Of a DNA stretch of 64,000 nucleotides, positions 13,293 through 14,043 are shown piece by piece. This DNA is from Gemmatimonadaceae bacterium (GTDB taxonomy: Bacteria; Gemmatimonadota; Gemmatimonadetes; Gemmatimonadales; Gemmatimonadaceae). Each line of letters opens with the position of its first letter. Within the stretch, counting starts at the first letter, position 1. Both the position numbers and the translations under genes were made by a program. The DNA lies in assembly GCA_025934775.1 (NCBI GenBank), contig JAICWO010000002.1, positions 1 to 64,000 of the forward strand, given 5' to 3'. The notes under the pieces are model-generated. The model was not told where the DNA came from. It made no database searches and saw only the letters and a program-made list of their open reading frames with translations.

Positions 13293-13316
13293 ATCGTTCA
13301 GAGGGTGCGTGCCGAG

Positions 13317-13375
13317 TGGGTTGGATTGAATTGCGGACGCGGACTTCGGCGGATGTGGCGAACGAGGCGCGGAAT
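13317..13375. repeat. 59-bp inverted repeat, left arm of GxxExxY element
   Basis: Aligns without gaps to reverse complement of 13799..13857, 49/59 identical. Confidence 0.9.
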
Positions 13376-13821
13376 CAGCGGCGAAAGTGCTGAGGGAGTT
13401 GCGGCTTCTGACGGTTTGTGTGCACGACGCGGTGAAATTTCGGCTCGTGGCCGAAATGAAATAGCAGTCCCACCTCGAGGTTCGTGCAGCGTAGATAGTT
13501 GTAGAGCTGTCGTTCGGCGATCGGATGCAGCCGCTCCGACGCCTTGAGCTCGACGACGATTCGATCGTCGACCAGCATGTCGAGACGTTGATACGCCGCG
13601 ATCGCTCCGAAGTAGTAGATCGGCACGAGCACCTCGCGGGCGACCGTATGGCCTCGGTTTGACAACTCCTTCTCGAGTACGGCCGAATAGACGTGCTCCA
13701 GAAAGCCAAACCCGAGTACCCGATACACGGCATAGAACCCACCAATGATTGATTTGGTGATCGCTTCATCGAGGAGCGGCTCGCCGTTTCGCGTCGACAT
13801 TCCGCGCCACGTTTGCCTCAT
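13375..13821 (-). CDS. GxxExxY / PD-(D/E)XK_3 family nuclease-like protein (probable start 13800)
   Basis: GGFYAVYRVLGFGFLEHVYSAVLEKEL (GxxExxY), RLDMLVDDRIVVELKA (D…ExK). Confidence 0.9.
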   Translation of the reverse strand: MRQTWRGMSTRNGEPLLDEAITKSIIGGFYAVYRVLGFGFLEHVYSAVLEKELSNRGHTVAREVLVPIYYFGAIAAYQRLDMLVDDRIVVELKASERLHPIAERQLYNYLRCTNLEVGLLFHFGHEPKFHRVVHTNRQKPQLPQHFRR

Positions 13822-13857
13822 CCGCTCGAGTCCGCGTCACCATTCCAATCCAACCCA
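13799..13857. repeat. 59-bp inverted repeat, right arm of GxxExxY element
   Basis: See 13317..13375. Confidence 0.9.
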
Positions 13858-14043
13858 AACCGGCGCAATCCCACCCTCCCGGCATCGATCTCCGGGGCAG
13901 TCCTCGATCACGGCGCCGGGACAGCATTTACCTCTTTTGGCGCGTAGGTCCTTGGGCTAACCTATCCCAGCCGCAAGCCGGGTCATCGCGTCTGCCGCCG
14001 CCTGGCACGCGCGAGCGCACTCCCACCTCACCGGAGGTTTTGG

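Follow-up and report, generated by a model that had tools for sequence, protein, structure and literature searches.

A GxxExxY nuclease-family gene between inverted heptamer arrays looks like a widespread, overlooked minimal selfish element

In the 64-kb window (the whole stretch of DNA that was analysed), the gap that separates map from an M14 peptidase gene carries a short unit in which a single small gene is bracketed by inverted repeats (Table 1). The two arms align without gaps, are 83% complementary, and lie 423 nt apart. When inverted repeats with arms no more than 1.5 kb apart were ranked across the window, this pair came out on top with 62.6 bits vs 33.7 bits for the runner-up, and a chance origin of the arms was ruled out, since they stand far above every other inverted repeat in the window. 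The open reading frame starts with an ATG at 13800 and ends with a stop codon at 13377-13375, and a second in-frame ATG lies upstream at 13821, within the right arm. A sequence-only reading of the window had described the arms, with their length and identity, and a lone GxxExxY/PD-(D/E)XK gene following map; the repeat search returned exactly the same arm coordinates, and the reading frame together with profile matches confirmed the gene, its start and its stop. That reading had also taken the coding region plus arms to be the whole unit, 541 bp in length, and in this respect the arms stood, but the extent had to be revised.

Table 1. Features of the unit in the window, with the evidence on which each is based.
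Feature	Coordinates	Strand	Basis and remarks
Whole unit bounded by inverted repeats	13306..13867	.	~562 bp; terminus homology of dispersed copies
Left outer terminus, with homology to the GCGCCGAAT ends found on dispersed copies	13306..13316	+	copy alignment
Left inverted arm, degenerate array ACGCGGACTT CGGCGGATGT GGCGAACGAG GCGCGGAAT	13317..13375	+	repeat search, 59 nt, 83%
GxxExxY / PD-(D/E)XK_3 gene, 141 aa	13375..13800	-	ORF, profile match and residues
Right inverted arm, same unit class as left, opposite orientation	13799..13857	-	repeat search
Right outer terminus, homologous to ends of dispersed copies	13858..13867	-	copy alignment

Alignment of the dispersed copies of the unit, which have a common GCGCCGAATCGGGTTGGATTG end, moved its termini outward to ~13306 and ~13867, with the coverage and identity of the copies climbing to at least 21 of 24 termini at ~13308 and ~13866. 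The resulting span agrees with that of the filled site in the sister genome G003 (Gemmatimonadaceae GZL_HY_2_bin.24), which measures 566 bp. No target-site duplication, in the form of a direct repeat of 4-12 bp, was detected at any plausible unit boundary, bearing out what had been judged by eye. In another genus of the family (G006), the M14 peptidase gene comes straight after map, a short plain spacer separating the two and the unit being absent, and several sister species also lack the unit at the post-map spot, which rules out that the unit is ordinary conserved intergenic sequence. Insertion boundaries at empty sites are blurred, the intergenic spacers having diverged completely. In G002, another dispersed repeat, TGTCATCCTGAGCGCAGCGAAGGATC, takes up the post-map spot (L172), its copies alternating in orientation.

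The window protein belongs to the GxxExxY family, with profile matches to PF13366 (E 5e-32; 111 bits, cut-off 22) and TIGR04256 GxxExxY (E 2e-31; 108.5 bits, cut-off 35). Residues G32, E35, and Y38 form the GxxExxY motif and are invariant across 25 aligned members, while D74, E84, and K86 supply the D...E-x-K catalytic signature of the PD-(D/E)XK superfamily, D74 being invariant among the 25 members and E84 and K86 present in at least 90% of them. By these conserved residues, the protein is a predicted PD-(D/E)XK nuclease. Comparison of the window gene with its same-spot orthologue in G003 gave a dN/dS of 0.13, and by this estimate both genes are under purifying selection. The predicted model of the protein, built from 5 sequences, is of low confidence (pLDDT 53.8); its best structural matches were 4ic1 SSO0001 (E 1.9e-3) and 2wiw Hjc (E 8.4e-3), no Foldseek match to this model reached E 1e-3, and the resolvase-like appearance of the model is only suggestive. 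A search of PDB chains by sequence found no meaningful relative (best E 0.56). Six GxxExxY paralogues are present in the same genome, one of which (L030, G000:C39:25331-25645) has two in-frame TAG codons and looks like a pseudogene. Carriage by viruses or phages is not supported, since single-protein scans of viral_contigs found no relatives and phage records contained none. In the open-access literature, the family has left hardly a trace, with the GxxExxY name appearing in two of 5.4 million papers and PF13366 in one, and the arm sequences do not appear.

The sequence-only reading had named flanking repeats at other GxxExxY loci as a test, and these were sought around 172 GxxExxY genes, taken from plasmids and, for the most part, from Gemmatimonadota and Bacteroidota. 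In a local alignment, each upstream flank was compared with its reverse-complemented downstream counterpart, a score of at least 30 was counted as a pair of arms, and windows shifted along the same loci served as controls. Inverted arms were found tight around 99 of the 172 genes (58%) vs 11 of 513 shifted controls (2%), and at a score of at least 40, around 65 genes vs 1 control. The size of this effect is not in doubt, and the Fisher p value of 1e-58 is nominal, because loci were treated as independent and those of the same phylum are not. The arrangement, whose generality had been missed earlier, is general to the family in both phyla, with 46/88 and 51/79 genes bracketed when each phylum is counted by itself, and the bracketed span has a median of 543 bp (10th-90th percentile, 455-654). 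PIN genes, likewise small multi-copy nuclease genes, were never bracketed (0/29, Bacteroidota). The alignment test detected no arms at ~42% of the GxxExxY genes, which may be decayed, resident, or different. Among single examples from beyond the two phyla, one from Sphingomonas was arm-positive, and those from Treponema and Fusobacteria were negative. On plasmid NZ_CP155749.1 of Sphingomonas parapaucimobilis, an arm-bounded GxxExxY unit (L167) lies between fabD and fabG in the fatty-acid operon. Two neighbouring GxxExxY genes were seen at L225 (G203:C4), 740 bp apart from start to start, and at L269 (G141:C1), with 126 bp between matches, and their sequence arrangement suggests tandem or repeated insertion.

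Short degenerate units (such as CACAGAG, CGCAAAG, CGCGGAT, and CACGGAC; approximately CRCRRAN) line up in arrays to form the arms and converge on the gene, with a consensus that holds across the family, a feature that had also escaped the earlier reading. The first loci, inspected by eye, gave this consensus as C[AG]C[AG][AG]A[GTC], and 82 held-out genes served to test it; in these, heptamers occurred at ~8-11 per kb beside the gene vs ~1-2 per kb farther out, in sense orientation upstream of the gene and antisense downstream. At least two convergent heptamers on each side were present at 46/171 genes vs 1/166 and 1/171 shifted positions, and heptamer spacing peaked at 8-11 nt. In the window, the strict consensus is matched by one heptamer per arm, the rest being further degenerated. 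Inspection of the sequence also brings up the possibility that the arrays are operators or terminators of the gene, providing autoregulation, and not element ends, since a window arm overlaps the start codon and heptamers such as CACAGAG and CACGGAG look like ribosome-binding sites. However, inverted arms lie downstream of the gene as well, and arm pairs lacking a gene are scattered over many unrelated sites, and we regard regulatory arms as highly improbable.

Arm similarity and protein similarity were compared in Mantel tests using pairs of genes with non-homologous outer flanks, and were correlated in Bacteroidota (rho 0.365, p 0.002) and in Gemmatimonadota (rho 0.151, p 0.004), showing, at the level of sequence, that arm and protein co-vary at non-syntenic loci. 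GxxExxY paralogues of the same genome have differing arms, and some Bacteroidota genes (L258, L262, L267, L270, L271) have another arm unit, CTGAAC..TGATT with ATGATTAA, which suggests clade-specific recognition. In 118 Bacteroidota genomes, a triple-heptamer pattern gave 54 matches vs 1 for a reversed control, with matches in 13/59 genomes having GxxExxY vs 2/59 lacking it (p 0.004, no ancestry correction). The matches in both of the GxxExxY-free genomes sit in open frames of more than 500 aa, and at least two matches in the gene-bearing group, in G111, are likewise in open frames; non-coding CRCRRAK heptamer arrays were found only in GxxExxY-bearing genomes. Gene-less palindromes are visible among the triple-heptamer matches (L374, L379). 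The co-occurrence of gene and arrays could in part reflect shared repeat tolerance or shared ancestry.

When the unit was used as a query, its arm was found to recur at several other places in the same genome, with a gene-less copy on C3 matching the left arm at 87% identity and one on C42 at 85%. At least five gene-less palindromes of ~180-310 bp are present (C3, C42, C14, C6, and C20:301 kb), two of which have a common interior (215/305 identical). G003 contains about three dozen arm copies and 12 gene-less units of ~460-800 bp, whose interiors are shared, mostly at ~80-87% identity over long stretches, and no flank homology was detected among these 12 units in 66 pairwise comparisons. The search of this genome and its relatives that the sequence-only reading had proposed thus recovered copies at unrelated sites, and the outcome that would have counted against that reading, arms without the gene as ordinary conserved sequence, was not what was seen, the gene-less arms being dispersed palindromes with a shared interior. 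No GxxExxY remnant, and so no decayed copy of the gene, was detected in any of the gene-less copies. The window arm type is abundant in just two of 20 genomes, a small number, both having this gene type with arms. Some of the G003 gene-less units (L066, L068, L071, L074, L079) are nested, with outer GCGGAT-type arms around an inner inverted GCGGAGAAC array, and some of the nested units are flanked by GTCCGTGGTCCATGG repeats.

Empty sites were also found in Prevotella. At L025, the space between the methylmalonyl-CoA epimerase gene and mmdA is taken up by a GxxExxY unit whose 29-nt arms are near-perfect, whereas more than 20 further species of the genus have 11-177 bp there and no GxxExxY gene. 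Homology on the left stops at or just before the epimerase stop codon and on the right resumes near the mmdA start, and since it is confined to the epimerase and mmdA sides, the unit fills the whole spacer. Together with the map-M14 spacer of G006, this locus provides the empty sites in relatives that had been suggested as a check. The empty spacers of many Prevotella species (L303-L331) have their own, differing degenerate 7-9-bp tandem arrays, as would fit a hot spot where turnover is fast.

Inverted arrays also surround a second family in Bacteroidota, the PF05635 23S-IVP genes, which encode four-helix-bundle proteins (L272-L301; 12/28 vs 2/112 controls). The units in the IVP arms belong to another class (GTAATCAGTAATCAGT and TATAAAGTATAAAG are examples), and CRCRRAN heptamers are almost absent from these arms. 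Two unrelated orphan families, GxxExxY and IVP, thus have one architecture with family-specific repeats. The bracketing of an unrelated family, and the Prevotella spacer with its species-specific tandem arrays and no gene, are what one might expect if GxxExxY were a passenger, i.e., if the arrays formed or spread by some other mechanism and small open reading frames just sat inside them. This explanation is unlikely in our judgment, as it runs against the use of a separate repeat class by each protein family, the co-variation of arm and protein at non-syntenic loci, the confinement of non-coding CRCRRAK arrays to genomes with GxxExxY, and the complete lack of bracketed PIN genes.

The IVP family also invites comparison with the intervening sequences (IVSs) of 23S rRNA. 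The IVS of Coxiella has an open reading frame for an IVP-kind protein and complementary ends, and its authors describe the origin of IVSs as unclear (PMC4990558). Like the units studied here, such an IVS (S23p/IVP ORF, PF05635) is a short single-ORF insertion with complementary ends and without a transposase (PMC4990558). However, the window ORF matches PF13366 and not PF05635, the repeat class is another, and the window unit lies between the protein genes map and M14 peptidase instead of in rRNA. If the units were nevertheless RNA-level elements of this kind, the arms would pair in the transcript and an RNase III-type enzyme would trim the stem, insertion would be harmless within operons, and the protein would act on RNA or be accessory. 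Consistent with such a role, IVSs combine an ORF with complementary ends (PMC4990558), units are found between operon genes, as with fabD-fabG, and the window unit folds far better than shuffled sequences (z -8.3). Any long inverted repeat will yield an RNA fold, however, so that the fold does not separate DNA-level from RNA-level models, and the palindromes are also present without a gene at many sites, and the ORF, whose D-ExK residues are conserved, falls in a nuclease superfamily and not in the IVP family. We consider an RNA-level element improbable.

A closer parallel is offered by REPtrons, in which a gene lies inside its own inverted repeats and these repeats are also dispersed without the gene (PMC2817692, PMC8266576, PMC3116915). 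As in the RAYT/TnpA-REP systems with their REPs, BIMEs, and REPINs, the GxxExxY arms flank one gene and have dispersed gene-less copies, and the repeat class goes with the protein clade. The two differ in that REPtrons encode an HUH Y1 tyrosine transposase and have stem-loops of 20-40 nt, whereas PDDEXK_3/GxxExxY is the sole family match of the ORF studied here and the repeats are degenerate heptamer arrays of ~25-100 nt; no consistent tag resembling the GTAG/CGTC foot of REPs was found at the termini of 18 unit copies. MITEs and insertion sequences share with the units terminal inverted repeats and short gene-less derivatives with a common interior, but the units have no DDE or HUH transposase and no target-site duplication, and their ends are degenerate arrays. 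Cas4 and the archaeal Holliday-junction resolvase Hjc have the PD-(D/E)XK fold and were the top matches of the low-confidence model, but these structural matches stayed above E 1e-3, and the PDB chains contained no meaningful sequence match.

We give about an even chance to the idea that the unit is a minimal selfish element, REPtron-like in organization, that consists of a lone GxxExxY nuclease gene together with the ends that its product would recognise. The sequence-only reading had similarly proposed a self-contained, mobile-looking nuclease cassette; its architecture and dispersal are observed here, and we infer the following scheme for how the protein would bind and cleave the arms, how host repair would act, and how the unit would move. 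The nuclease would recognise the convergent heptamer arrays, perhaps as an extruded hairpin or cruciform, and would cut at its own arms, after which host repair, by annealing or recombination, may copy the arm-bounded unit to new places. Gene-less palindromes would spread in trans in gene-holding genomes, in the way that REPs rely on the RAYT transposase, because in this proposal the ends suffice as substrate. To our knowledge, a lone nuclease of the PD-(D/E)XK fold is not known to join strands, and the absence of a target-site duplication fits a nuclease that does not do so. No pair of near-identical gene-bearing copies was demonstrated at unrelated sites of one genome.

More tentatively, and with somewhat less than an even chance of being right, GxxExxY and 23S-IVP genes may lie at the centre of a large, so far undescribed class of prokaryotic elements with convergent, family-specific heptamer-like arrays, in which each lone small protein, belonging to no known transposase family, would recognise its own array and drive the spread of arrays and palindromes. 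If such a class exists, it would also account for many of the short degenerate tandem repeats that lie unexplained between genes in bacteria. The placement of a gene within arms of this kind looks like a widespread and overlooked minimal selfish element, and it allows two long-standing puzzles to be seen in one framework, namely where the IVS/S23p insertions of rRNA come from and how short degenerate tandem arrays arose between bacterial genes. GxxExxY proteins are widely annotated and scarcely present in the literature, and the conserved DNA partner identified here makes their function directly testable.
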